Assembly: GCF_022378355.1 (NCBI RefSeq)
Contig: NZ_JAKMAJ010000008.1
Location: forward strand, 1-64,000
Direction: 5' to 3'
Source of the DNA: Brenneria bubanii
GTDB lineage: Bacteria > Pseudomonadota > Gammaproteobacteria > Enterobacterales > Enterobacteriaceae
Length of the DNA stretch: 64,000 nucleotides
The position numbers were made by a program, and so were the translations under genes. A model generated the notes under the pieces. That model was not told the DNA's origin, made no database searches, and saw only the letters and a program-made list of their open reading frames with translations. Of the stretch, positions 11,162-26,015 are shown in pieces; position 1 is the stretch's first letter; each line of letters starts with the position of its first letter.

Positions 11162-12927
11162 TATTCCGACCCGCTTTGTGAATCTTTGTACTGGTTTACT
11201 TCCATGTCATAGGCATGCAGGAAGGCTTCGCCAAACAACGTGTGAAAGTCGTCTTCAATCTCGCCCGCGGTGTCATTGTATTGACGAATGAAATAGTCCC
11301 ACAGCGCCGCCTTTCGGCTAGCGGATAGCGACAGTCGCGAGGTGGCGCCATCGCGTTTCGCCGCTTCCTCCAGCAGGTCTGGATTAAACGATTGCAGCAT
11401 GGCGGCAATAATGGCTCGAATTCCGGATATCATTCCCAACTGGTGCGCCTGAAGGTCGATAAGCGCATCGCGAACCGATTTTTTCGGCGGCATAAAGCCA
11501 GGCATGCGAGAACCGAACATCTGCATCAGCACTGTTTTTCCTGATGGCAACAGTTTGAAGGGATTGTTGGCGTCATCCAGCACCATGGTCATATCGGCCT
11601 TTACGCCGCGCTTGAGAATAGAGCGCGAAGATAGGAGCGCCACGGTGCCCTGAGAGAACATGCTTAGCATCTGGCCAAGTTGATGCATGCTGTCCCGGTC
11701 AAACTGTGGAATCGGCTGCATATCGCCCAGTCCCATTCCTTGCAGTAAGGCCTCCAGCAGTTCGCCTTGCAATACATCACCGCGCGCGGATGACGTAGCC
11801 GCCTGGCTCTGCGTATGGCTGGTGTTTACCGGATCAATGCGCAGGCGGCCTGTGGGCGTCTGGCTGACCTTGCGTTGTACCGTCTGCGGGGTAGGCAGGG
11901 TGATATGGGCATAATCCTGCGGCTCTTGCTCAGGGATCTGCGGCGCGCTTTTCTCCGGCTCGTTGCTGAACAACGATGAATTATCCGCTGGGGAGTAAGG
12001 GCTTGCTGCGCTTTCTTTCACCGAAGCGGGTATTTGATTATCGGTCGTCGCTGGTGTTTCAGTCGACTGAACGCTTTGCGGTTCGGGCGTTATTTCCTCA
12101 TCGCCAGGTTGCGCTAGCGGCAGTGCACCGCCCATCAGACCGAGTGGATCCTCGCTATTGGACTGGGATTTTCCGCTGCCCGCGCCGCCGAAAAACGCCA
12201 GAGGATCCAGCCCATTGTCTTCGCCGCTGGCCAAGGGGGACGATGCGTTGTCCGACGGCGTCAGCGAGGTTGGCGTGGCATCGTTGAATATGCTGTCGGT
12301 CTTAAAGAGCTCCTCGTTATTGAAAAGCTGGTCGGTCTCTACTGGTTTTTTGTCAAACAGCGGCTCTTGAGTATTGAAATGCGCCAGCGGATCTTCCGGA
12401 TTGCGCTCTGGCTCTTTTGGCGCCGTAAATGGATTAAGCAGCGACTCTTGCGACGGCCTTGATCGGGTGCCGGAAATATTGTCGGAAATAGAGAATTCCT
12501 GCGTCAGGCTATCCCAAATTTCCGCTGGCACCGCGGTGGGGATATTTTCTGTCGGCGGCGTCTGCACCGGCCGCTGGGCTGCAATATTGTCTGGCGCCGG
12601 CTTGGCTTCCTGCGTCAGTTCGCTGACCTGCAGACGATACTCATCGATACCGAGGATATCGCCATCTTGAAGTTCAACCTGCCGGCCGCGTTCAAGGGGG
12701 AGGTCATTCAGCATCATTCGCGTCACATTGCCGCGGTTGGTGATACGACATTCGCCATCAGCGGATATATGGACGATCGCTTGCAGCCGAGAAATAGCGC
12801 GGTCATCGTCCGGTAAAACAAGATTATTATCGGTGCCGCGGCCAATAGTTCCCCCTGGCGGATTAAAATCGCAGCTACTCTGCGGTGGCTGATGGCCGGG
12901 TTTGGTGGTGATGATTGTGAATCGCAT
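11161..12927 (-). CDS. tagH: TagH/Fha, FHA-domain T6SS regulator
   Basis: The N-terminus is an FHA phosphothreonine-binding domain (GTIGRGTDNNLVLPDDD, then ISRLQA, residues about 20-90). A long Pro/Ser/Glu-rich linker with DPLAFF-like repeats follows, then a helical C-terminal domain (about 400-588) containing LLQGMG and RMPGFMPPKKSVRDALIDL, typical of VI_FHA proteins. Phosphorylation by the T6SS kinase and recognition through FHA domains gate the apparatus in Pseudomonas and Serratia. I chose the ATG at 12927 (MRFTII), preceded by AGGAA, over an upstream frame start that adds 12 unconserved residues. Confidence 0.9.
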   Translation of the reverse strand: MRFTIITTKPGHQPPQSSCDFNPPGGTIGRGTDNNLVLPDDDRAISRLQAIVHISADGECRITNRGNVTRMMLNDLPLERGRQVELQDGDILGIDEYRLQVSELTQEAKPAPDNIAAQRPVQTPPTENIPTAVPAEIWDSLTQEFSISDNISGTRSRPSQESLLNPFTAPKEPERNPEDPLAHFNTQEPLFDKKPVETDQLFNNEELFKTDSIFNDATPTSLTPSDNASSPLASGEDNGLDPLAFFGGAGSGKSQSNSEDPLGLMGGALPLAQPGDEEITPEPQSVQSTETPATTDNQIPASVKESAASPYSPADNSSLFSNEPEKSAPQIPEQEPQDYAHITLPTPQTVQRKVSQTPTGRLRIDPVNTSHTQSQAATSSARGDVLQGELLEALLQGMGLGDMQPIPQFDRDSMHQLGQMLSMFSQGTVALLSSRSILKRGVKADMTMVLDDANNPFKLLPSGKTVLMQMFGSRMPGFMPPKKSVRDALIDLQAHQLGMISGIRAIIAAMLQSFNPDLLEEAAKRDGATSRLSLSASRKAALWDYFIRQYNDTAGEIEDDFHTLFGEAFLHAYDMEVNQYKDSQSGSE

Positions 12928-13035
12928 AGCGTATTCCTGCCTGGGTATGTGATTAGCGCTCAAACGGCGAGGGTCTCAACAAGGCCCATGCGGGTTGGGG
13001 GCTTTTAAGGTAATGAAACGATTATGGGGAAACAC

Positions 13036-13716
13036 TCAGTTAAGCGGTTGAAGTTTATCAAGTTCAATATAACCTTGCGGATTACCGAGCAGATCAGGTT
13101 TGTCCGCATCATATATTGCCGCTAGGATCCACTTATCGTTTATTGTTTTAATTTTTATTAATGGCTTATTAAGCGGGATTTTTTCACTTTTCTTCGCATT
13201 ATCTGTCGGTGTTTCTTTAAAATAAAGAGAGCCAATACCGTCTTTGGCAGAATAAGTTACAATATATGGGCTGGCTTCACAGCCAGCGCTCTCTTCAAGT
13301 TTTTGAATATCCAATTTACGATCCTGCCCTGGTGTGAATGTAATTAGTCGGGCGTTATGATATGTGTGATCACACTCTTTTTTTTCAGAGAGATTATCTA
13401 CGACTATCCCGCCAATACGTTCTATATGGCCTTCTTTATATTTAAGGAAATTATGTGGAATGTCTTTGAAGTAATCTTTCAGTAAACTATCTTTTTTCTT
13501 CTCTGTGTCTACGTCGAGATTAATTATCTTATCGACGTGTGAGTTTTCGGTTAGTGAAAAATAGCGGAAATACAAAACTGGATTATTTACGGTGACTGAA
13601 TCATTCCAGATTGGCAGCCAATATGCTTGCAATACACCATGGTTTATTTTTTGAGTCGCAAGGCTTGATGGTGCAATGACAATAAAAAATAAGAGTGAAA
13701 GTATTTTTCTGAACAT
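13036..13716 (-). CDS. Exported protein, probable immunity partner of the DUF5675-like gene
   Basis: The 226-residue protein has a signal peptide (ILSLLFFIVIAPSSLA) and no recognised family. The mature part contains two well-separated cysteines (KKECDHTYH and SAGCEASPY) and ends in GYIELDKLQ, reminiscent of a small SH3-like strand pattern. It starts 9 bases after the preceding DUF5675-like gene and is equally AT-rich. A periplasmic immunity protein directly downstream of a cell-wall-directed effector is the standard T6SS layout, so that role is likely but inferred. Confidence 0.65.
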   Translation of the reverse strand: MFRKILSLLFFIVIAPSSLATQKINHGVLQAYWLPIWNDSVTVNNPVLYFRYFSLTENSHVDKIINLDVDTEKKKDSLLKDYFKDIPHNFLKYKEGHIERIGGIVVDNLSEKKECDHTYHNARLITFTPGQDRKLDIQKLEESAGCEASPYIVTYSAKDGIGSLYFKETPTDNAKKSEKIPLNKPLIKIKTINDKWILAAIYDADKPDLLGNPQGYIELDKLQPLN

Positions 13717-13725
13717 AATACCTCT

Positions 13726-14172
13726 TTATTTATTGCAGTTCACGTAACATGATGTAATCATGATGGTATAGTTTTCGATACCTTCTTGAGAGATAGTCTC
13801 TTTTAACTCTTTTAGTTTAATAACACTTCCACCAACGAAATCATTTCCTTTAGTGCTTCCAATCAAAAGACAACCATCTGTATTTCTTGGATAGTTTCCG
13901 TTATGAATAAGAATATATCGAGATTGTGGTACGTTGGCATTATAAAGTAAAGGAACTGGGTTGTATGGTTTTACAGAAGGAATGTTACTGTTATGCCATT
14001 TTATTTTATAGGATCCTTCAGGAATACGTTGCCTTAAACCTGAAACGGTAGTGTCTGGCCCAGGTCGCTCAAGAATGTAGCCTTTTGTCGAGCATCCTGA
14101 AACTTCATAAGTGCTTATGGTTGAGTTATTTTTTTGCCAAAGTCTTCTTATTAATATTACGCGATTTGCCAT
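13726..14172 (-). CDS. DUF5675-like protein, candidate T6SS cell-wall effector
   Basis: This 148-residue protein has the order I associate with DUF5675: an N-terminal strand region with ILERPGPDT, then RIPEGSYKIKW, and the signature ILIHNGNYPRNTDGCLLIG with His90 and Cys101. The His-Gly...Gly-Cys arrangement resembles the catalytic motif of L,D-transpeptidase-like enzymes that act on peptidoglycan, which is known for the T6SS effector family Tlde1 (DUF2778). It lies directly behind hcp and a tai4 relic, and an exported partner gene follows. The family call is from motif memory; effector activity is inference. Confidence 0.65.
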   Translation of the reverse strand: MANRVILIRRLWQKNNSTISTYEVSGCSTKGYILERPGPDTTVSGLRQRIPEGSYKIKWHNSNIPSVKPYNPVPLLYNANVPQSRYILIHNGNYPRNTDGCLLIGSTKGNDFVGGSVIKLKELKETISQEGIENYTIMITSCYVNCNK

Positions 14173-14200: not shown

Positions 14201-14356
14201 CTAATTATCCGATTTACCCTTAAATTTACTTATAAGATCCCGCAATTTTTCACTATGATAAAAGTCAATGCATTTCGCCGTTATCATAGGATCGCCAGAT
14301 TTACTGTCATATTGCTTAGCTAAAATGGCAAGAATATGATTTATTTTAGAAGCCAT
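14201..14356 (-). pseudogene. tai4: tai4 immunity gene with large in-frame internal deletion
   Basis: The 51-codon frame begins MASKINHILAIL and jumps directly to AKQYDSKSGDPMITAKC and DFYHSEKLRDL. Both parts match the second tai4 copy at 15655-16020, but about 70 codons covering most of the signal peptide, the mature N-terminus and the middle are missing. Tai4 is the periplasmic inhibitor of the T6SS amidase Tae4. Without its central region this copy cannot fold as the inhibitor. It occupies the same position behind hcp copy 1 as the other copy does behind hcp copy 2. Confidence 0.8.
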
Positions 14357-14512
14357 ATCGACGCCTCCGTTGCTTGAGGAAAATTGATATTAAACTCACA
14401 TTTCCACCAATTTTTTATCACATCGGAAACAGGTATATTGATTTCTAAAAAATGCTACCATGCTTGTAGAAAATTGGGCCTTGTCTCTTTTTGAGCTTTT
14501 ATCAACAAGGAA

Positions 14513-14532
14513 GTGAGCCCATAGGGGCTCAC
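14513..14532 (-). terminator. Hairpin after hcp copy 1
   Basis: A perfect 8-bp stem (GTGAGCCC / GGGCTCAC) with a 4-base loop lies 8 bases after the hcp stop. The following minus-strand sequence (TTCCTTGTTGAT) is only moderately T-rich. It may be a weak terminator or an mRNA-stabilising hairpin that lets hcp transcript accumulate above its neighbours. The same hairpin follows the other hcp copy. Confidence 0.6.
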
Positions 14533-14540
14533 CGTAGCGA

Positions 14541-15023
14541 TTAAGCTTCTTTATTTTCCTTGATATTCCAGCCAGCGCTGCTTTCCGCGCCTTTACCGCC
14601 AGCGCTAGTCTGCTCCCAATACTGTTGCTTCACTTTCGCAGCCTGGAAAGCATAAGCGATGCCAACCAGCTCGCCATCGTTAGAGCCTGTGTATTGAACA
14701 GAGGTGACTAATACGTCTTCCAGAGTAATACGTGCGTATTCAACCTGCTGTCCCCCGGCCTTGCAGACAGACACTTCAACTTTGGTCAGGTGTTTACCAC
14801 TGGAGCAGTGTTTCAGGATTGCAGTGGTGGATTTGTCAATCAATGCGTTGATATGCAAATCGTTAAAATTCACTTTACCAGCGCCGCCGCCGCCGCCCAC
14901 GCTCATATTTCCCGGTTGGGAAGCACCCCATGAGAACGAGGTGATGTCAGTCCAGCCGGTGTGATTGGAATCTTTTGATTCACCGGTTACACCGTCAACT
15001 TTCAGGAACATATCAATAGCCAT
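14541..15023 (-). CDS. hcp: Hcp (TssD), T6SS tube protein, copy 1
   Basis: This is a 160-residue Hcp of the Gly-rich-loop type: MAIDMFLKVDGVTGES, DITSFSWGASQPG, a GGGGGAGKVNFNDLH loop, and the conserved C-terminal AFQAAKVKQQYWEQ. Hcp hexamers stack to form the inner tube and can carry small effectors in the lumen. It is nearly identical to copy 2. The differences cluster around residues 108-126 (SVQYTGSNDGELVGIAY here, SIQYTGSDNGDTVGVTY there). The upstream leader is also duplicated, so it may have its own promoter. Confidence 0.96.
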   Translation of the reverse strand: MAIDMFLKVDGVTGESKDSNHTGWTDITSFSWGASQPGNMSVGGGGGAGKVNFNDLHINALIDKSTTAILKHCSSGKHLTKVEVSVCKAGGQQVEYARITLEDVLVTSVQYTGSNDGELVGIAYAFQAAKVKQQYWEQTSAGGKGAESSAGWNIKENKEA

Positions 15024-15327
15024 AATAATATCTACTCTTCGTTAGTGACAATATATTGCTTTCGGGAAAGCACCTATATGGCAAACGGGAAAGCATGGGG
15101 CCGAATAAAACCGTCCATATTTTACCTCTGCCTCGTGACTGAATGGATAAAATGTCCATCCAGTAATATCAGCCGCTTGCTTATGGGCAAACAACTGGAG
15201 TCGACGTAATTTTTAAATTTATGTTAACGGAATTAATAAGAATCCGCTTGTAAACGAAATATTTCAATTCAAATAAACACATGTCTTGCAGATGTTCTGG
15301 TTCAATTTTTTCTCATCAATGATATAT

Positions 15328-15520
15328 TTATGCTGATAAAAACGGCCTTCGTTTCAACTTAAAATCAAGCTTCTTCAATCGAGCTACATATTTACTGATT
15401 CTCATTTTATTTTTCCCACACTTTTCTACACAATTCAGTAAATCTTCATCTGATACGGGTGAAACGTGTACATCTTCAGCAAATACCGCTCCCTGATAAA
15501 ATGTATATAAAATTTTTCAT
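15328..15520 (-). other. Possible remnant of an exported protein gene between the hcp copies
   Basis: In the 630 bases between hcp copy 1 and the second tai4 there is no intact gene. One minus-strand frame from about 15520 to a TAA at 15328 stays open for some 60 codons. It reads like the tail of a signal peptide (GAVFAEDVHVS), followed by SDEDLLNCVEKCGKNK and a basic end. It has no start codon at its front; the only internal ATG would give 25 residues. It may be debris of a lost gene. Confidence 0.3.
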
Positions 15521-15654
15521 TTATGTAAATTTAATTAATTATTCTATTTAAAGTGGTGAATATATTATTTTTTTAGGGTGGAATATCCTGAATTCGACAA
15601 TATTAGTTGCCTACTAATATGTTCTGATCTTCATTTTGTAGCATCGTGAAAGAA

Positions 15655-16020
15655 TTAATTATCTATTTTACCTTTAAACTTTTCCACAAGATCCTGCAAT
15701 TCATTACTATGATAAAAGTCAATACATTTTGCCGTTATCATAGGCTCGCCAGACTTACTGCCATATTGCTTAGCTAAGAACTCCTTAGCTAGATTTCTTG
15801 TTGCTGTATGGGCTTCAAGAGCATAATCACCAAACTCCAAATAACCACTGGCAACCGCTGCGGCATCATTCTTGATCTCTTTTGAATGATATCCTTATGC
15901 CAGGCATGTACTTAATGCGTAATTCTTCAGATATTCTTCCGGCGTGTAATCTACCCGGGCAAAAACAGGTGTTGATAATATAGTTAAAAGGGCAAGGCTA
16001 TAATTTATTTTAGAAGGCAT
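15655..16020 (-). pseudogene. tai4: tai4 immunity gene interrupted by a nonsense codon
   Basis: The frame from the ATG at 16020 has a signal peptide (NYSLALLTILSTPVFA), then YTPEEYLKNYALSTCLA, a TAA at 15897-15895 (codon 42), and continues in the same frame with GYHSKEIKNDAAAVASGYLEFG and MITAKCIDFYHSNEL to the natural end. Related Tai4 proteins have a glutamine where the stop is, so a single CAA to TAA change explains the break. Tai4 inhibits the peptidoglycan amidase Tae4 in the periplasm. No tae4 gene lies beside it, so loss of selection for immunity is a plausible cause. Confidence 0.82.
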
Positions 16021-16216
16021 ATTGATGCCTCTGTCGCTTGAGGAAAATAGCAATGATCAGAGCAAATTGAACCATTCCACAAATTTGATATTTAACCCCA
16101 CATTTCCACCGATTCGTTTACCGACATCGGAAACAGGGATATTAATTTCTGAAAACCGCTGCCATGCTTGTAGAAAATTGGGTTTCGTCACCTTTTGATC
16201 TCTTATCAACAAGAAA

Positions 16217-16244: not shown

Positions 16245-16727
16245 TTAAGCTTCTTTATTCTCTTTAATGTTCCAACCAGCGCTGCTTTCCGCGCCTTTAC
16301 CGCCAGCGCTGGTTTGCTCCCAATACTGTTGTTTCACTTTCGCCGCCTGGAAGGCATAAGTCACGCCTACGGTGTCGCCGTTATCCGAGCCGGTGTACTG
16401 AATAGATGTGACTAATACGTCTTCCAGAGTAATACGTGCGTATTCCACCTGCTGTCCCCCGGCCTTGCAGACAGACACTTCAACTTTGGTCAGGTGTTTA
16501 CCGCTGGAGCAGTGTTTCAGGATTGCGGTGGTGGATTTGTCAATCAATGCGTTGATATGCAAATCGTTAAAATTCACTTTACCGGCGCCGCCGCCGCCGC
16601 CCACGCTCATATTCCCCGGTTGGGAAGCCCCCCAGGAGAAAGACGTGATGTCAGTCCAGCCGGTGTGATTGGAATCTTTTGATTCACCGGTTACACCGTC
16701 AACTTTCAGGAACATATCAATAGCCAT
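16245..16727 (-). CDS. hcp: Hcp (TssD), T6SS tube protein, copy 2
   Basis: This second 160-residue Hcp has the same start, Gly-rich loop and C-terminus as copy 1 and a handful of substitutions near residues 108-126. It lies closer to tssC, the position where the single hcp gene is found in most clusters of this type, so it is likely the parental copy. The leader (16728 to about 16900) is shared with copy 1. Two expressed copies would raise the supply of tube subunits, which are consumed at each firing. Confidence 0.96.
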   Translation of the reverse strand: MAIDMFLKVDGVTGESKDSNHTGWTDITSFSWGASQPGNMSVGGGGGAGKVNFNDLHINALIDKSTTAILKHCSSGKHLTKVEVSVCKAGGQQVEYARITLEDVLVTSIQYTGSDNGDTVGVTYAFQAAKVKQQYWEQTSAGGKGAESSAGWNIKENKEA

Positions 16728-17146
16728 AATAATATTTACTCTTCGTTAGTGACAATATATTGCTTTCGGGAAAGCACCTATATGGCAAACAGGAAAGCAT
16801 GGGGCCGAATAAAAACGTCCATATTTTACCTCTGCCTCGTGACTGGATGGATAGAATATCCGTCCAGTAATATCAGCCGCTTACTTATGGGCAAGTAGCT
16901 AAAATTGATATAAATATTAAATTTATATCAATGGAATCTATAAATTTTTTTATACGAGAAATTTTTAAATGGCGTTTTACTAACGACCTGAAAAGACGTG
17001 CATAATAATCCAGATAACAGTGAAAATGCGATTGGTCTTTTCATAGCAATAAAACTAGGTCTTATTCCCATCGCTTTTCGCTCCTACTTTATCTCGGTCC
17101 AGGGGATAGGCAGGAGCCGAATTAGTACAGATCCGTAACCATTATA

Positions 17147-17254
17147 TTACGCGTCTTTTGCCTTCAACGATGGCAGCTTGGAAACCAGTCGCAGAGAAAC
17201 GGTCAAGTCTTCCAACTGGTAGTGAGGCTTGCCGGTATAGTCACCTACCAAACA
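17147..17254 (-). pseudogene. tssC: Remnant of a second tssC gene
   Basis: In one frame this reads CLVGDY and then KPHYQLEDLTVSLRLVSK and LPSLKAKDA, then TAA. The first six residues match an internal TssC segment (about residue 165 of the intact copy) and the rest matches the TssC C-terminus, so some 300 codons are deleted between them. The 20 or so bases after the stop also match those after the intact tssC. It starts 6 bases behind the immunity gene at 17261, so the muramidase/immunity pair lies between two tssC 3' ends. The rest of 16900-17146 holds nothing I recognise. Confidence 0.8.
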
Positions 17255-17260
17255 TATGTT

Positions 17261-17629
17261 TTATTCGATAACACCATGATCTTCTGAAATGATTTTATCA
17301 TTTTCCATTATGATGTAGTTCCATTTATTCAATTGATGATTATCGCTTAATAATGTGTAAGTATAGTTTTTATTTTTGAAGGTGTAACCTCTAAAATCGC
17401 AAGTCTCAGGGCAGTTTATGTTTACGGTTTCCCCTTTTAATTTTATTGTTTGCTTTGTTTTGATGCTTTTTGAGATTAATGTAACATTTTTACAATAAAT
17501 ATTACCCTCTTCACAATACGAGGTTATTTCGGCAATATATTTACTTCCTTTAAATATTTCTGTCGTTTCTGCATAAGATGATAAAGGAAATATCGCACTA
17601 AGAAGTGTTAGTAGTAAAATTTTTTTCAT
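17261..17629 (-). CDS. Exported immunity protein of the GH24 effector (predicted)
   Basis: This is a 122-residue protein with a signal peptide (ILLLTLLSAIFPLSSYA). The mature part is beta-rich with four cysteines (CEEGNIYC, NINCPETC), suggesting disulphides in the periplasm. Its ATG overlaps the stop of the muramidase gene by four bases. Small exported Cys-containing proteins are the usual inhibitors of lysozyme-like T6SS effectors, so immunity is the natural reading, but I do not recognise the family. It is strongly AT-rich compared with tssC. Confidence 0.7.
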   Translation of the reverse strand: MKKILLLTLLSAIFPLSSYAETTEIFKGSKYIAEITSYCEEGNIYCKNVTLISKSIKTKQTIKLKGETVNINCPETCDFRGYTFKNKNYTYTLLSDNHQLNKWNYIIMENDKIISEDHGVIE

Positions 17630-18531
17630 AATTTCACATAAACTCCTTTATGGAAGACATTTAATTCTGAAATTCGTCTGTTTAATAATCCCTGCATTGT
17701 TTTTCCTTGGCTTTTTATCCACATTTTCCATGCGGTATCAAGATCTTCATTGCTCAATCCATTTATTACTTTTAGCATCGTTGAGCCAGGGAAACCGCTT
17801 TTAGGACTATCGACACCGACATTATATGAAAAAATAACTAAAGCGTCGAACTCATTTTGCGTAAGATTGACCTTTACATATTTTTTTACGGCATCTTCGA
17901 ATTTTATTAATGTTGTTATGAAAAGTGTTTCTGCTTGTGTTTCTGTTATCCCATTCTTAAATTTATCGAATTCAGCATGACTTGATATAAGATATCCATA
18001 GCCTATGGTTGCGCCTGCAACATAATTTGTGATAATTTTTCCTGTCTGGTCATCATAAGGCTTTAGTCGTAATTCTTCATATTGTTTTAACAATAAAATA
18101 CCTTGGCGACTGAAGCTCATTACGGATGGGTTGTATTTTAAACCGCCAACATCATCGACATTATTTACTGACGAAAGCGGGATGTTTCTCTTAGCGCTAT
18201 TCCCCGTTGAAAAATTTCCCTGTTGTAAATATTTTATTGTCTTTCCATTCTTATCAACTTTAGCATCTGGGAATGATAAAAAATGGCGTTGAAATAATCT
18301 TATGGCTTTGATGGTGTTATACCCACAAATCCCATCTCCCCTTAATTTATATCCTTTTTTAATAAGTAATTCCTGAACAACTTTGACATCGTCAAAATGA
18401 TTCACACCGTTCATACCAACTGAGTATTTTATCTCCATAATATATTTTCTCATCCGGGGTATATTTTTATTCATATCCCAGTTCTGATAGGACTGGGAAG
18501 AAGAGCCGTACTCATACAGCTCCGTGACCAT
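17626..18531 (-). CDS. T6SS effector candidate: peptidoglycan-binding plus GH24 lysozyme domains
   Basis: Residues about 35-85 form a PG-binding-1 domain (VKVVQELLIKKGY, GDGICGYNTIKAIRLFQ). Residues about 140-300 form a T4-type GH24 muramidase: YEELRLKPYDDQTG with the likely catalytic Glu152, ATIGYGY at 175-180, ALVIFSYNVG, and GLLNRRISELNVF near the end. There is no signal peptide, as expected for a protein delivered by Hcp or VgrG into another cell's periplasm. The ATG at 18531 lies in sequence that also follows the tssC remnant, so the native start may be a later ATG such as 18438. It overlaps its immunity gene by four bases and is AT-rich. Confidence 0.85.
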   Translation of the reverse strand: MVTELYEYGSSSQSYQNWDMNKNIPRMRKYIMEIKYSVGMNGVNHFDDVKVVQELLIKKGYKLRGDGICGYNTIKAIRLFQRHFLSFPDAKVDKNGKTIKYLQQGNFSTGNSAKRNIPLSSVNNVDDVGGLKYNPSVMSFSRQGILLLKQYEELRLKPYDDQTGKIITNYVAGATIGYGYLISSHAEFDKFKNGITETQAETLFITTLIKFEDAVKKYVKVNLTQNEFDALVIFSYNVGVDSPKSGFPGSTMLKVINGLSNEDLDTAWKMWIKSQGKTMQGLLNRRISELNVFHKGVYVKL

Positions 18532-18535
18532 TATA

Positions 18536-20035
18536 TTACGCGTCTTTCGCTTTGAGTGACGGCAGCTTGGAAACCAACCGCAGAGAAACGGTCAAGCCTT
18601 CTAACTGATAGTGCGGACGCAGAAAGAACTTGGCGGCATAGTAACCCGGGCTGTCTTCAATTTCCTCCACCTGCACTTCGGCGGCGGCCAGCGGTTTACG
18701 GGATTTGGTTTCCTGAGATGAGTTGGCCGGATCGCCGTCAACGTAGTTCATTACCCAGTCATTCAGCCAACGCTCCATTTCATCGCGCTCACGGAAAGAA
18801 CCAATCTTGTCGCGCACGATGCATTTCAGATAGTGCGCAAAGCGGCAACAGGCGAACAAATAGGGCAGGCGTGCCGCCAGACGCGCGTTGGCCGTGGCGT
18901 CGGCGTCGTGGTATTCCGTCGGCTTCTGTAGTGACTGGGCGCCGATAAACGCGGCAAAGTCCGAGTTTTTACGGTGCACCAGCGGCATAAAACCGTTCTT
19001 TGCCAGTTCCGCTTCACGACGATCGCTGATGGCGATTTCAGTCGGGCATTTCATATCCACGCCGCCGTCATCGCTTGGGAAAGTATGGCAGGGCAGGTTT
19101 TCCACCGAACCGCCTGATTCGACGCCGCGGATGGACGTACACCAACCGAATTCTTTAAATGATCGGTTAATGTTGGCTGCCATGGCATAGGCGGCGTTAG
19201 TCCATGTGTAGTTGTTGTGGTTCGCGCTGTCGGTTTCTTCTTCAAAATCGAAACTGTCAACGGGGTTGGTACGAACGCCATAGGGCAGGCGCGACAGAAA
19301 ACGCGGCATCACCAGACCCAGATATCGTGCGTCTTCAGACTCACGCAGGCTGCGCCAGGCGGCGTACTCGGTATTCTGGAAAATTTTTGTCAGGTCGCGC
19401 GGATTAGCCAATTCCTGCCAGGATTCCATCTGCATGATGCTTGGGGCGGTCCCAGCAATAAACGGGCAGTGACTGGCGGAACCAATGCGCGCCATTTCAC
19501 CCAGTAATTCCACATCCTGCGGACTGTGGTCGAAGTAGTAGTCACCTACCAGGCAGCCGAATGGTTCACCGCCGAACTGGCCGTACTCTTCTTCGTAGAT
19601 TTTTTTGAAGATTGGACTCTGATCCCAGCCTACGCCCTTGTGGCGCTTTAAGGTGCGGCCCAGCTCCTGCTTGGAGATGCTCATAAAGCGGATTTTTAAC
19701 ATCTCGTCGGTTTCAGTATTATTGACCAGATAGTTCAGTCCCCGCCAGGCGCTTTCCAGCTTCTGAAACTCTTCGTGGTGAATAATCTGGTTAACCTGCT
19801 GGGAAAGTTTCTCATCGAGACCGGCAATCAGATTCTGAATGGTGCGATAGACATCGGATGAAACGGTCACCGTATTTTCCAGCGCTTGTTGCGCCAGTGT
19901 TTTTACCGCGTTCTCTACCGCTGAACGAGCCTGATCTGTCTTCGGTCGGAACTCTTTTTTAAGCAGTGTGCTGAATTCATCTTCACTGAATGTGTTCTGC
20001 GAAGGCTGAGTCTGTGGCTGATAAGAATTGCTCAT
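18536..20035 (-). CDS. tssC: TssC (VipB), large sheath subunit
   Basis: This 499-residue protein has the conserved KLESAWRGLNYLV, GEPFGCLVGDYYFDH, FIAGTAPSIMQM and FKEFGWCTSIRGVESGG segments and the C-terminal LEGLTVSLRLVSKLPS. TssB and TssC heterodimers form the contractile sheath that drives the Hcp tube. It follows tssB by three bases. Downstream of its stop the usual hcp is displaced by the muramidase/immunity cassette and a tssC relic. Confidence 0.97.
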   Translation of the reverse strand: MSNSYQPQTQPSQNTFSEDEFSTLLKKEFRPKTDQARSAVENAVKTLAQQALENTVTVSSDVYRTIQNLIAGLDEKLSQQVNQIIHHEEFQKLESAWRGLNYLVNNTETDEMLKIRFMSISKQELGRTLKRHKGVGWDQSPIFKKIYEEEYGQFGGEPFGCLVGDYYFDHSPQDVELLGEMARIGSASHCPFIAGTAPSIMQMESWQELANPRDLTKIFQNTEYAAWRSLRESEDARYLGLVMPRFLSRLPYGVRTNPVDSFDFEEETDSANHNNYTWTNAAYAMAANINRSFKEFGWCTSIRGVESGGSVENLPCHTFPSDDGGVDMKCPTEIAISDRREAELAKNGFMPLVHRKNSDFAAFIGAQSLQKPTEYHDADATANARLAARLPYLFACCRFAHYLKCIVRDKIGSFRERDEMERWLNDWVMNYVDGDPANSSQETKSRKPLAAAEVQVEEIEDSPGYYAAKFFLRPHYQLEGLTVSLRLVSKLPSLKAKDA

Positions 20036-22397: not shown

Positions 22398-25300
22398 TTA
22401 TGGGCATACAAAGCCGGGAAGCTGGAAGGGATTGCGGATGCTGTTGGGCACAAATTCCAGCGTTACCTGATGTCCGTCAACCATGAAGGTGGCCTGGCGG
22501 CTGAGATTGCTGCCAGGCGTGATGCGAGCGCGATCGAAAAAGCGGTTCAGTGCCCAGGCGCCATTGGTTACCAGCGTTGAGGTTGTGCCGTTGGTGAGCC
22601 CCAACTGCATCCGTACCTGGTTGGTTCCGCCCGGGCCTGGCCAACTGACCAGTTGAACAGCCTGCGGACCGTGGCTGTAACGCAACTGTTGGCCATCGAC
22701 ATCCAGCGTCAGATTAAGAATGGTGTTATCCATACTAACCGTGCGTAAGGTGACTCGATAGGATGGCGTAGCCGTACCGTTGGCGAAAAAGGCGTCGCGA
22801 ATAGACTGCGCCTGCTGGAATGGGCGTAATAGGCTTTCGCTGCCAGGCAGCGTTTTGCCATCAATACCTGGTGTAAAGCGCCAGCTCTGCTGGGTGGTAT
22901 CGACCTTGTTGGTCAGATTGTCGCGAAAAAAAGTGTCCATCAGTCCGGTTCCCGGCGCAAACATGCGCGCCAAATCGTCCGGCGTTACGTCGTTGTTGGC
23001 TGAGCGAACCAGCGGGTAGCGTCCGGCAATAGCCTGACGACAGAAACTGCCTACCTCAACGCTGATACGCTTGCGGATATTTTCAAGGTTCCGGCGCTGA
23101 GTATCGCTGCTTGCGCCGACCGCCATGCTGCTGAATATTCCCTGCAACTCGCTTGGCAGACGGCCTGCGCTGGCCTGTAAGTTGCTGATGGCGTCATTCC
23201 CCGGCGCATTCAGCCCGCTGTTCGTCGCGTCCTGGACGGCGGTAAGATAGCGGTAAAGATCGTCGACCTGCTTGAGAACATCGTCGAATACGATAGTTTT
23301 GCTGCCTTTCTCAAGCGGTTTTGCCAGCTCAACTATCGAGGCATAGTGATCGGCGACCATCTGTTCCGGCGTTTGCGCGCCGGCAGTGGCTATCGGCGTA
23401 TTGTCGCGATTGCTAAACAACGTTTCCAGCGTGCGAGTGGAGTTATTGCTGTTTTGCAAGGATGGATCCGCTTCCGCCGCGTTTGTCGTTGCATGAGCCA
23501 GCGTCAACACCTTGCCGAGGTTGATGACCAATCTGCGCAACGGTGAGTTATTGCTGGAAATCAGCCGTATGGTATTGATGCGCTGCGAGAGGTCGGCGCT
23601 GTTATTAAGCTGAATATCGGCCAGAAAACTGTCCCAGTGGACGATAAAATCCTGCATATAAAGCTGGCGGACTGCGCTATCGGTTTGCTGTTTATCTTCC
23701 GGCGACTCATTCATGCCCAGCACCCAGATGTCGTCCTTACGTAACGCGGCGATGACGCTGTCGATCTGGCCATTGAAGCTTTTCCAGTAGCCATCTGGCG
23801 TATACAGGCCAGGCACGCCGTCACTGATGGATTTGCCGCTTTTACGGGAAAATGCCAATTCACTTTGCGGACCGGCGAGCGTCGTCAAGGATACTGGCCG
23901 CAGGCTTTCATCATGCACCAGTAAACGCTTCAGACGACCATATACGCGAGTCGACAGTGGGTTCTGGTTAATAAGCGCCTGGTGACGGCTGATCAATGCT
24001 TCCTCTTTGGCATAAGGGGATGACTGAATCTGCGGTTCCAGCAGTTGCGTTAGGTGCTGTTCCAATTGGCTAAGCTGCGCCTGGGTCACATTTTGCGGCA
24101 GATTGCGCCGTAAATTGAGCATTACCCAAGAATGCAGAAATTTACCGTCATAATGTTTAGGCTGGTAAAGCATTTGGTAGGCTTTTAGCGCTTCGTAACT
24201 GTATTCCACGTCGCTGCCGTTGTCGTTACGCAACCAGGCGGTGATGTGTTGGGTCACCGCCGGCAGCAGTAACTGCTGTAAAGATTTTTGGTAGAGATCC
24301 TGCGATGCATTGCTGATGTCATCGCCACGATACAACCCCATACGGCGAGTTAGTGGCGGGTCGTTAACGTCGAATGCCGTACTGGCTGGAAGCTCGATCA
24401 GACTGTTGAGAAGCGGTAGTAAATTGAACAGGTCCTGTTGATTATGACCCTGGAGCGTCTTGCTCTGCTGCGCGACTTCCGGAATTTTTGCCTGAACTTC
24501 GTCAAGATAACTATTGTTTTGCTTGTAGCTGATTAGCCACAGTGTGCCGCTCGCCACCAGCAGCGTCAGCAGCGCTGCGTAACCAGACCAAATAATTGCG
24601 TGACTGCGCAGTTCCCACCAGCGATTTTGCCCTGCAATCCCCGCTTCTTGAAAGATAACGTTTTGTAGCAGGTTTTTAATAAAGAAGCTCTGCCCCTTGC
24701 CGGCAGGGATGGGCGATTCTTTATTGACGGAGTCCCAATTATCGCCATCCGCGCTGTTTACCGGCAGCGAAAGCGCGCGATTGAGTTCGCCCATCACACG
24801 GTCAAACGGCAGCCCTTCCTGAGTTCCGCTTGCCAAATAGATCCCGCGTGGCGAGAATTCGGTTTCAAAATTGGAGCGTGCAAATACGGTGTTCAGATAC
24901 TCTGCGAGTAATGGGCGCAGGGCGGTGAACTCTTGTGGGAAGAGGAAAATCTCGGCTCGTGTTTTGGTATCTCGCTCTTGCAGCAGGTTATCCGGCAGGC
25001 CAGCATCCAGACGCTGCTGCAGCAGCGCGAACTCCTGCGTGAATGCGCCCATGAAATCAAAATCGGCCTGTTTTGATTGATCCCACGGGAAAGTAAAGCC
25101 CCAGATCTGGTCACGCTGTGTTTTATCAAAACTCGCGAAATAAGACCGAAAACCTTTCAGGAGATCTGCTTTGGTGACCAGTACGTAAACCGGGAAACGA
25201 ATACCTAACTGTTCGTGTAATTCCTGTAGGCGCTGGCGAAGGTTTACCGCTTGCTGCTGAGAGGCTTCCGGCGACTGTGTGAGCAGATCGGAAACGCTTA

Positions 25301-26015
25301 TCGTGATAATGACGCCGTTAATCGGCTGACGGCGTCGGTATTTGCGCAGCAGTTCAACAAAACGTAGCCATTCACCGGCATCCTGAGTTTGCTCACTCTC
25401 CTGAGTGGTATAGCGCCCCGCGGTATCCAATAAAACCGCTTCGTTGGTGAACCACCAGTCGCAGTTACGCGTACCGCCTATTCCGCGCAGCGCAGTTTTG
25501 CCAAAACGGTCCGCTAGCGGGAACTGCAGGCCGGAATTCATTAATGCGGTTGTTTTACCGGAGCCTGGCGCGCCGATAATCACATACCAGGGCAATTGAT
25601 AAAGATACTGATTGCTGAAGCGTTGAGTCCACAGAGCACCGTGCTGTGACGAATTGTTGAAGTGCGCTTTTTTCAGGACCTCCGCCGCCTCATCAAAGCG
25701 TTCGGCCAGGATCTGATCCGCATTATTCAGAGGCGTGCTATCGCCTTTTCGCTGTTCAGGCTGAGCCTCACTGAGGTTATCCATGAGGCGTCGGTTGAGC
25801 CACGCTCTGTAGATACGCGGCACCACGTGGGCGTGAATCCAAATGAGGTAGATCACCAGGATACCGATAATTCGGTGCAGCACGGATTCCAGAGGGCGGA
25901 TATCGGCAATAGAAAGCAACGGACCAATCATCCAGATTACCGCGGCGAGCGCCGTGGCGCCCACAAAGCCCCAGAGGATGCGGTTAGTAAGTATTGAAAC
26001 GAGAATATTCAGCAT
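22398..26015 (-). CDS. tssM: TssM (IcmF), inner-membrane T6SS protein with NTPase motif
   Basis: This 1205-residue protein has two N-terminal transmembrane helices (about 10-32 and 44-62), a cytoplasmic domain with Walker A GAPGSGKTT near residue 148, a third helix near 472-492, and a long periplasmic part ending in QLPGFVCP. The conserved periplasmic segments FFRDNLTNKVD and WSWPGP-like VSWPGPGG are present. TssM joins TssL and the lipoprotein TssJ in the trans-envelope complex that anchors the baseplate. It overlaps nothing but is only two bases behind tssL. Confidence 0.96.
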   Translation of the reverse strand: MLNILVSILTNRILWGFVGATALAAVIWMIGPLLSIADIRPLESVLHRIIGILVIYLIWIHAHVVPRIYRAWLNRRLMDNLSEAQPEQRKGDSTPLNNADQILAERFDEAAEVLKKAHFNNSSQHGALWTQRFSNQYLYQLPWYVIIGAPGSGKTTALMNSGLQFPLADRFGKTALRGIGGTRNCDWWFTNEAVLLDTAGRYTTQESEQTQDAGEWLRFVELLRKYRRRQPINGVIITISVSDLLTQSPEASQQQAVNLRQRLQELHEQLGIRFPVYVLVTKADLLKGFRSYFASFDKTQRDQIWGFTFPWDQSKQADFDFMGAFTQEFALLQQRLDAGLPDNLLQERDTKTRAEIFLFPQEFTALRPLLAEYLNTVFARSNFETEFSPRGIYLASGTQEGLPFDRVMGELNRALSLPVNSADGDNWDSVNKESPIPAGKGQSFFIKNLLQNVIFQEAGIAGQNRWWELRSHAIIWSGYAALLTLLVASGTLWLISYKQNNSYLDEVQAKIPEVAQQSKTLQGHNQQDLFNLLPLLNSLIELPASTAFDVNDPPLTRRMGLYRGDDISNASQDLYQKSLQQLLLPAVTQHITAWLRNDNGSDVEYSYEALKAYQMLYQPKHYDGKFLHSWVMLNLRRNLPQNVTQAQLSQLEQHLTQLLEPQIQSSPYAKEEALISRHQALINQNPLSTRVYGRLKRLLVHDESLRPVSLTTLAGPQSELAFSRKSGKSISDGVPGLYTPDGYWKSFNGQIDSVIAALRKDDIWVLGMNESPEDKQQTDSAVRQLYMQDFIVHWDSFLADIQLNNSADLSQRINTIRLISSNNSPLRRLVINLGKVLTLAHATTNAAEADPSLQNSNNSTRTLETLFSNRDNTPIATAGAQTPEQMVADHYASIVELAKPLEKGSKTIVFDDVLKQVDDLYRYLTAVQDATNSGLNAPGNDAISNLQASAGRLPSELQGIFSSMAVGASSDTQRRNLENIRKRISVEVGSFCRQAIAGRYPLVRSANNDVTPDDLARMFAPGTGLMDTFFRDNLTNKVDTTQQSWRFTPGIDGKTLPGSESLLRPFQQAQSIRDAFFANGTATPSYRVTLRTVSMDNTILNLTLDVDGQQLRYSHGPQAVQLVSWPGPGGTNQVRMQLGLTNGTTSTLVTNGAWALNRFFDRARITPGSNLSRQATFMVDGHQVTLEFVPNSIRNPFQLPGFVCP

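Follow-up and report, generated by a model that had tools for sequence, protein, structure and literature searches.

In the type VI secretion system (T6SS) core operon of Brenneria bubanii, a GH24 muramidase-type gene and a presumed immunity gene lie between an intact copy of the sheath gene tssC and a relic of a second tssC. We consider it likely that this cassette was imported by recombination anchored in tssC, leaving the relic as a scar. Within the window, the 64,000-nt stretch of DNA that was analysed, all genes of the locus and the relic are on the minus strand (Table 1). The first-pass annotation had described an intact tssC followed by a peptidoglycan (PG)-binding/GH24 gene and, overlapping it by 4 nt, a Cys-rich gene; the open reading frames and the Pfam and NCBIfam matches agree with that layout.

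Table 1. Features of the tssC–hcp region, in window coordinates
Feature	Position	Strand	Remarks
Second tai4 remnant, behind hcp copy 1	14202..14384	-	direct repeats D2, D4 with 15656-15777, 15981-16048
hcp copy 1	14541..15023	-	divergent in upstream flank and 5′ part, G003-like in 3′ part and downstream
Dead tae4/tai4 pair between hcp copies	15655..16212	-	
hcp copy 2	16245..16727	-	PF05638; G003-like in upstream flank and 5′ part, divergent in 3′ part
Stub of older tssC–hcp interval	16967..17113	-	aligns with L093 15314-15394 and 15666-15849
Repeated post-tssC-stop sequence	17114..17146	-	still attached to native flank
tssC relic	17147..17254	-	CLVGDY (codons 161-166), TGK (~codons 467-469), codons 474-499 and stop
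Four-Cys presumed immunity protein	17261..17629	-	122 aa; signal-peptide-like; 4-nt overlap with effector gene
GH24 muramidase-type effector with PG_binding_1	17626..18438	-	ORF open from 18531
Intact tssC 3′ end and 33 nt past stop	18503..18616	-	repeated in relic
tssC, intact sheath gene, presumed insertion anchor	18536..20035	-	VipB PF05943 9e-137; VipB_2 PF18945; TIGR03355

The relic begins 6 bases past the stop codon of the immunity gene and reads TGT-TTG-GTA-GGT-GAC-TAT (CLVGDY), then TGK, then PHYQLEDL...KAKDA and a stop. As the first-pass annotation had reported, it aligns with tssC at the nucleotide level and the match runs on beyond the stops: 17114-17227 is 84.2% identical to 18503-18616 over 114 nt (E = 6.9e-30), covering the last 81 nt of tssC and 33 nt beyond both stop codons. 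In a scan of each gene's own 3′ end (165 tests), the relic scored 76 against a reverse-strand null maximum of 17.8. For this main block, chance similarity is refuted, as is an assembly artefact, since the two copies differ at 16% of sites and are thus not an assembly repeat, in a contig of 240 kb; either would be an almost inconceivable source of the relic, with only the shortness of the CLVGDY piece, just 13–18 nt by itself, to speak for chance.

That piece is weaker than the main relic. It is a 13-nt exact match inside tssC codons 161–166, extending to 15/18 over 18 nt with all differences synonymous, and 13 nt was reached in 23 of 20,000 random 35-mers from the window (draws from the region itself, about 3%, were skipped yet counted in the denominator). 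On the best reading of the sequence, CLVGDY would have been joined to AAK (codon 467 on), with codons 167–466 lost between GGTGACTAC and GGTTACTAT and FFLR (12 nt) lost as well. The earlier claim that the extra copy shed about 300 codons hangs on an 18-nt match with a chance of about 1e-3.

A congener (G003), whose TssC is 98% identical to that of the window, has a single tssC with neither cassette nor relic, and provides the empty site; no cassette-free relative carrying the tssC fragment was found. Over the last 81 coding nucleotides, the intact copy and the relic differ at 12/81 positions, the intact copy and the congener at 8/81, and the relic and the congener at 9/81. Local duplication of tssC in this lineage, followed by entry of the cassette between the copies and decay of the extra one, would give the same final layout. 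Such recent copies should be each other's closest relatives, however, and here they are further apart than either is from the congener; the congener also holds no trace of a duplicate. We regard this history as improbable.

The same comparison bears on which copy is foreign. In the 33-nt stretch beyond the stop, the congener agrees with the relic at 5 sites and with the intact copy at 1, and the relic's downstream flank is native. The coding 81 nt are divided, with 5 sites at which the relic matches the congener, 6 at which the intact copy does and 2 at which the intact copy and the relic agree; across the whole alignment, whose ends are less certain, the counts are 14 for the relic and 12 for the intact copy. 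The post-stop sequence thus favours the relic as the native end, whereas the coding part does not tell foreign from native. The 6-to-5 split in the coding part would suit a cassette that arrived with a donor tssC tail at its rear, leaving the intact tssC wholly native, but a dead copy can be expected to gather changes of its own, and the G003-like post-stop sequence is continuous with the native flank, which makes a foreign relic unlikely. Somewhat more plausible, though still doubtful, is a Campbell-type or unequal crossover, in which a circle or tandem of tssC(161-499)-GH24-immunity would enter by one homologous crossover, without an illegitimate joint in the chromosome, and yield the same product. 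The neighbouring hcp pair looks like the outcome of such an event, with two full copies, the 5′ part of one and the 3′ part of the other native, and a divergent payload between them; against it, the start of the relic falls at no natural boundary, and neither a tandem nor a circular donor turned up. Both of these routes are variants of import, so the probability that we give to import overlaps with theirs.

Recombination was probably homology-anchored and partly illegitimate, by analogy with the route proposed for Vibrio cholerae but with a sheath gene as the anchor. We infer the following order of events. The incoming DNA would have carried a 3′ stretch of tssC in front of the cassette, and a crossover inside the resident tssC would have rebuilt a full-length, presumably working gene. 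Just past the immunity gene, the insert would have been linked at its far end to the resident tssC near codon 161, leaving a 5′-truncated tssC beside native downstream DNA; this copy would later have collapsed to the present relic by losing codons ~167–466 and then FFLR. The upstream anchor is visible as the tssC end repeated across the insert, past the stop included; a non-homologous downstream joint may be marked by the start of the relic at tssC codon 161, which carries the same 18-nt caveat as above. A breakpoint within the 3′ end of the intact tssC was considered and rejected, as the dip in identity with the congener is too slight (90% over the last 100 nt, 91–97% elsewhere). No donor with a tssC–GH24 junction was found; among Escherichia coli genomes, 106/5426 had a match to the locus, none of them across 80% of its length, and the five matches listed all lay within tssC.

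The pair is most likely an antibacterial T6SS effector–immunity cassette from a diverged relative. GC content is 34% in the GH24 gene and 28% in the immunity gene, against 53% in tssC. The open reading frame 18531-17626 matches Phage_lysozyme (PF00959, 1.7e-27) and PG_binding_1 (PF01471, 2.6e-5), and PDB lysozymes match the protein with E-values down to 7.6e-20. Its first ~10 codons are the repeated post-tssC sequence, and translation probably starts instead at ATG 18438, because a relative in another locus (L058) starts there. E152, D161 and T175 (301-aa ORF numbering) are invariant in 7/7 aligned sequences; we take these Glu, Asp and Thr to be the catalytic residues of GH24, with roles as in T4 lysozyme. 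The toxin would be loaded via Hcp or VgrG and cut the glycan strands of peptidoglycan in the periplasm of a rival, and the exported immunity protein would guard its owner in the same compartment.

The presumed immunity protein has an N terminus that looks, by eye, like a signal peptide. Neither Pfam nor NCBIfam gave a match at E 0.01, and its family of 12 sequences was not placed by sequence, single members matching weakly (best DUF6134, at 0.0031). The predicted model has 8 strands (pLDDT 83.9), and its fold matches many unrelated barrels, with no clear sign for or against kinship with lysozyme inhibitors of the PliC/MliC type.

An immunity homologue adjoins the GH24 gene in 8/10 loci of the family sample and, order-wide, in 1/8 inspected GH24 loci (8 of 13 other matches were inspected). 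Outside this operon type, a T6SS gene lies nearby in 4/18 GH24 loci (L117, as a fragment at the edge, L119, L167 and L173) and none was found in 14/18 with the probes used over the stretch examined, a count that indicates that the GH24 family also occurs outside T6SS loci. Its tie to the T6SS comes from L173, where VgrG and GH24 are fused with the immunity gene behind; in L119 the GH24 protein and immunity gene follow a VgrG. Within T6SS surroundings the GH24 gene sits between tssC and hcp in the window and behind hcp in L027 and L058. The latter holds a related cassette without a scar, and an apparent Hcp–GH24 fusion there, suggested by ORF extension, was discarded, since the hcp stop separates the two in translation.

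Scars of this kind are scarce. Comparison with related T6SS loci yielded one independent parallel, a Mixta locus (L027) in which an hcp 3′ relic (codons 144–159) comes after a related GH24/immunity pair that itself lies behind hcp. This scar supports insertion by recombination, and together with the empty site it upholds the first-pass proposal that the cassette came by recombination that left a second tssC end. Scar frequency was 2/165 gene ends and then 0/29. In a scan of 24 GH24 loci, 3 of which had no GH24 match, a relic of the upstream gene behind the immunity gene was found only in the window and the Mixta locus, L125 apart. The long repeat round the GH24 gene of L125 (score 221.6) was set aside as a member of a set of three 1.05-kb repeats whose size and number are IS-like, and weak matches to the own tssC or hcp elsewhere were no stronger than the reverse-strand null.

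The interval also records older events. Behind the relic, the translation of the stub, compared by eye with an ORF of L093, shows a tae4-like start and a tai4-like start, and tblastn of the stub gave no tae4 match; in the congener the tssC–hcp interval carries a deleted tae4 beside an intact tai4, whereas in the window this old tai4 is only a stub. Within the dead pair between the hcp copies, a tae4 piece (16044-16088) matched at 7.8e-4 by tblastn and a Tai4 piece (15655-15840) at 4.2e-5, under Pfam's cut-off. Relative to the congener, the two hcp copies form a reciprocal mosaic with one breakpoint (34:18 vs 11:56; permutation p = 5e-5), which also supports insertion by recombination. Where the first-pass annotation suggested an effector swap inside the core operon, the cassette is an addition beside older dead tae4/tai4 pairs and not a clean swap.

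In V. cholerae, T6SS effector–immunity modules displace one another sequentially, and the authors propose that a module is anchored by upstream homology while its far end is joined illegitimately (PMC5361080). The present locus shares the homology-anchored module. In the available part of that account, what is displaced downstream is the 3′ end of the older effector gene with its immunity genes, at a pair downstream of the machinery genes; the anchor and relic here are the sheath gene tssC (hcp in the Mixta locus), inside the core operon. At vgrG islands of Pseudomonas aeruginosa, effector swapping is described as replacing an existing effector, and no structural-gene relic is described in the sections available (PMC11751169). 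Closer in content are the hcp and vgrG islands of Pantoea and Erwinia, with low-GC effectors at the core-locus hcp, some lysozyme-like with PG-binding domains; the words recombination, truncated and tssC are all absent from that text, and no relic is described in the accessible passages (PMC3235180). The Ssp/Rap pairs of Serratia marcescens (between vipB and fha, round hcp1) occupy the same slot, on both sides of hcp in the core operon, with neither a GH24 pair nor relics described in the part of the report at hand (PMC3533786). Enterobacter bugandensis is reported to keep leftover tssB and tssC genes, but, so far as the available portion goes, these mark the loss of a whole cluster, without effectors, rather than a scar beside an effector–immunity pair (PMC10763514). 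In the open-access literature we found no paper on tssC fragments or pseudogenes and none joining type VI secretion, GH24 and an immunity protein, and among the papers listed there we know of no such core-gene scar in print.

Uptake of T6SS effectors without loss of an essential sheath or tube gene has so far mostly been inferred from mosaics; here, a structural-gene relic and an empty site in a congener lay the breakpoints open to inspection. As a tentative and rather speculative extension, the 3′ ends of tssC and hcp may be recurrent docking sites, at which cassettes bearing a tail of the adjacent core gene integrate by way of that tail, restore the core gene and leave its former end as a datable scar. 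If so, the three events (tssC and hcp here, hcp in Mixta) would sample one route of arming the T6SS that spares its core. The signature, an immunity gene followed by the 3′ end of a core gene, is searchable and could be used to find and order effector acquisitions, and the GH24/four-Cys pair is put forward as a T6SS candidate.

The T6SS operon of the window runs on the minus strand through a DotU/TssL gene, tssA, tssB, tssC, the interval holding cassette and relic, two hcp genes, a DUF5675 gene, a 226-aa gene, an FHA gene, a phosphatase gene and a TssH ATPase gene. Behind tssC, a GH24/PG-binding gene overlaps a small signal-peptide-like gene by four bases and a tssC relic comes next, just where the first-pass annotation had placed a muramidase/immunity cassette and its scar; the relic matches the true tssC end at 84% over 114 nt, of which 33 nt lie beyond the stop codon. 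The cassette is AT-rich, with a GC content of 34% in the GH24 gene and 28% in the immunity gene, compared with 53% in tssC.

Coordinates of the T6SS features in the window and at loci of other genomes
Locus	Feature	Coordinates	Strand	Reading
Window	1205-aa ORF	22398–26015		tssM, by size and position
Window	tssC	18536–20035	minus	intact copy
Window	GH24/PG-binding gene	17626–18438	minus	putative effector
Window	Small signal-peptide-like gene	17261–17629	minus	presumed immunity gene
Window	tssC 3′ fragment	17147–17254	minus	relic
Window	Post-stop sequence	17114–17146	minus	duplicated with relic
Window	hcp copy 2	16245–16727	minus	
Window	hcp copy 1	14541–15023	minus	
Window	DUF5675 and 226-aa genes	13036–14172	minus	possibly effector–immunity pair
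L093 (G003)	Tai4-type gene, intact, 121 aa	13081–13446	minus	probable orphan immunity gene
L093 (G003)	Tai4-type gene, intact, 186 aa	14954–15514	minus	probable orphan immunity gene
L027	180-aa ORF, then 132-aa lipoprotein-like ORF	12120–13057		possible older effector–immunity pair
L064	283-aa ORF	15121–15969		immunity domain C-terminal
L066	301-aa ORF	14452–15354		immunity domain C-terminal

To assess the relic, tssC and hcp 3′ ends (165 gene ends at 82 loci) were compared with their own downstream DNA, other full copies being masked; the window relic scores 76, against a reverse-strand control maximum of 17.8 over the same ends. The immunity stop is followed by six bases, CLVGDY, TGK, PHYQLEDLTVSLRLVSKLPSLKAKDA and a stop. 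CLVGDY corresponds to tssC codons 161–166 at 15 of 18 nt, with an exact run of 13 nt (chance about 1e-3) and only synonymous differences, TGK fits AAK of codons 467–469, and in the alignment FFLR is absent ahead of PHYQ. On a parsimonious reading, the relic would have formed by a deletion between GGTGACTAC and GGTTACTAT plus a 12-nt loss, a deletion of the same size as the roughly 300 codons estimated earlier to have gone from the extra tssC. That this second copy may have begun near codon 161 before the deletion is the weakest link in the reconstruction.

The site without the cassette is found in a congener. All ten genomes of the genus that were compared (the window's own and nine others) have some TssC, and the window-type T6SS occurs among the nine only in G003 (TssC 98%), the other eight carrying a different TssC at 39–42%. 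The 19-kb T6SS stretch of G003, L093, contains a single tssC and neither a tssC relic nor anything matching the GH24 or immunity protein; a tssC fragment in such a cassette-free relative, named beforehand as evidence that would speak against insertion, is absent. Because window DNA downstream of the relic aligns with G003 DNA downstream of tssC, the relic lies at the native tssC–hcp junction, and the cassette is an addition placed between relic and intact tssC. Between tssC and FHA, G003 carries a deleted tae4, an intact tai4, more degenerate sequence, one hcp, another tai4, a DUF5675 gene and a 226-aa gene. Its two Tai4-type genes, on both sides of hcp, are probably orphans; no intact tae4 was seen beside them. 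The DUF5675 and 226-aa genes are shared with the window, where they lie between hcp and FHA with a low GC content of 35–36%; the window's 226-aa protein is signal-peptide-like, and a relative of it at 45% lies behind hcp at L014, a locus of another genome.

Recent copying of tssC within the window's own lineage should leave the two window copies mutually closest, yet over 81 coding nt they are the most distant pair of the three, with 69 identities between intact copy and relic, 73 between intact copy and G003 and 72 between relic and G003. Beyond the stop, five sites unite the relic with G003 against the intact copy, and one unites the intact copy with G003 against the relic. In the coding part, five sites join the relic to G003, six join the intact copy to G003 and at two the window copies agree against G003; over the whole alignment, whose ends are less certain, these counts are 14, 12 and three. 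The post-stop sites favour the relic as the native tssC end; coding sites do not decide which tssC copy is foreign and which native. A close relative was probably the source of the tssC end, because a homologous post-stop stretch was found by eye, among 82 loci, only behind the intact window copy, in the relic and in G003. We propose an insertion that would have been anchored by homology, with its far end joined non-homologously. A one-crossover, Campbell-type route may give the same product, and it is this route that the hcp pair resembles more.

Between the two hcp genes, which share 447 of 483 nt, lies a dead tae4/tai4 pair. When both window units are aligned with the single G003 unit, copy 2, nearer tssC, resembles G003 upstream of hcp and over its first two thirds, and copy 1 does so in the last third and downstream; informative sites divide 34:18 to the left and 11:56 to the right of the best single breakpoint (permutation test over breakpoints, p 5e-5, one of 20,000). 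This mosaic is what a crossover inside hcp would leave on inserting a divergent segment of hcp 3′ end, dead tae4/tai4 and hcp 5′ part, and it suggests that core genes serve as anchors for recombination in this operon. Two near-full-length hcp copies also lie downstream of tssC at L036, L040 and L042 (3 of 80 named loci).

Comparison with related T6SS loci, proposed as a check in the first-pass annotation, yielded one independent parallel. In Mixta sp. Marseille-Q2659 (L027), hcp is followed by a GH24 gene (54% identical, stop-interrupted), an immunity gene (48%) and an hcp relic, which covers codons 144–159 at 94% and some 14 nt beyond the hcp stop, small indels included; another putative pair and then tai4 follow. 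The 180-aa ORF behind that relic, with what we take to be a zinc-protease-like HE..H-type motif, has no Pfam match at 0.001. In Pantoea dispersa (L058), no scar accompanies the related pair (52% and 40%) found behind hcp, so that, in a comparison made post hoc, a scar is present at two of the three loci where this type of T6SS carries a closely related pair, counting the window. A further 15 loci with 29 gene ends (three loci repeating named ones) gave no scar. The tssC–hcp slot is a known hot spot: its length is 62 to 2172 nt across the 78 named loci having both genes, and 54 junction ORFs, hand-chosen from 88 listed, include matches to Rap1a (16), Tae4 (14), Tai4 (13) and LprI (2).

The GH24 domain matches solved lysozymes (down to 7.6e-20), and a Glu, Asp and Thr, the residue types that are catalytic in T4 lysozyme, are invariant in all seven aligned sequences. 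The immunity protein is predicted to form eight strands matching barrels; its fold matches include PliC, MliC and the T6SS immunity protein BtaiB, with unrelated barrels scoring equal or higher. Two cysteines are invariant in 12 of 12 homologues and two more in 11 of 12. At L064 and L066, the immunity domain forms the C-terminal part of longer ORFs. Close GH24 matches occur in 11 of 392 genomes of the family sample, and 14 of 394 genomes of the order sample have a match, the window's own included in each; an immunity homologue adjoins GH24 in eight of the ten other family matches and in one of eight loci examined from the 13 other order matches. At L173, a VgrG ends in GH24 and is followed immediately by the immunity gene, and at L119 both genes lie behind a VgrG. 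Only 4 of these 18 GH24 loci (10 family, 8 order) gave a T6SS gene with probes for VgrG, Hcp, TssB, TssC, TssM, TssH and FHA, and the upstream neighbours at L166 and L169 are transporter and metabolic or transferase genes; these observations count against a strict tie of the GH24 family to T6SS loci, and we lower that claim. In this operon, the cassette most likely encodes a putative T6SS muramidase effector and its periplasmic immunity protein.

The cassette with its tssC relic is real and well explained, and the class of mechanism is already known. For V. cholerae effector arrays, passages of Kirchberger et al. (PMC5361080) propose insertions anchored by homology and joined without homology at the far end, and describe an effector 3′ end that has been displaced; excerpts of PMC9711863 and PMC11751169 argue along similar lines, PMC11751169 placing a breakpoint at the vgrG 3′ end, and in agrobacteria recombination within vgrG, displacing downstream content, is inferred in part of PMC8546570. 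The anchor here is the sheath gene, with a structural-gene relic left behind; a search of an open-access library turned up no paper in which a tssC fragment is described as a scar of this kind. Taken together, the core sheath gene as anchor, the empty site in a congener, the parallel in Mixta and the mosaic hcp pair amount to a clean case and supply a signature that can be searched for.
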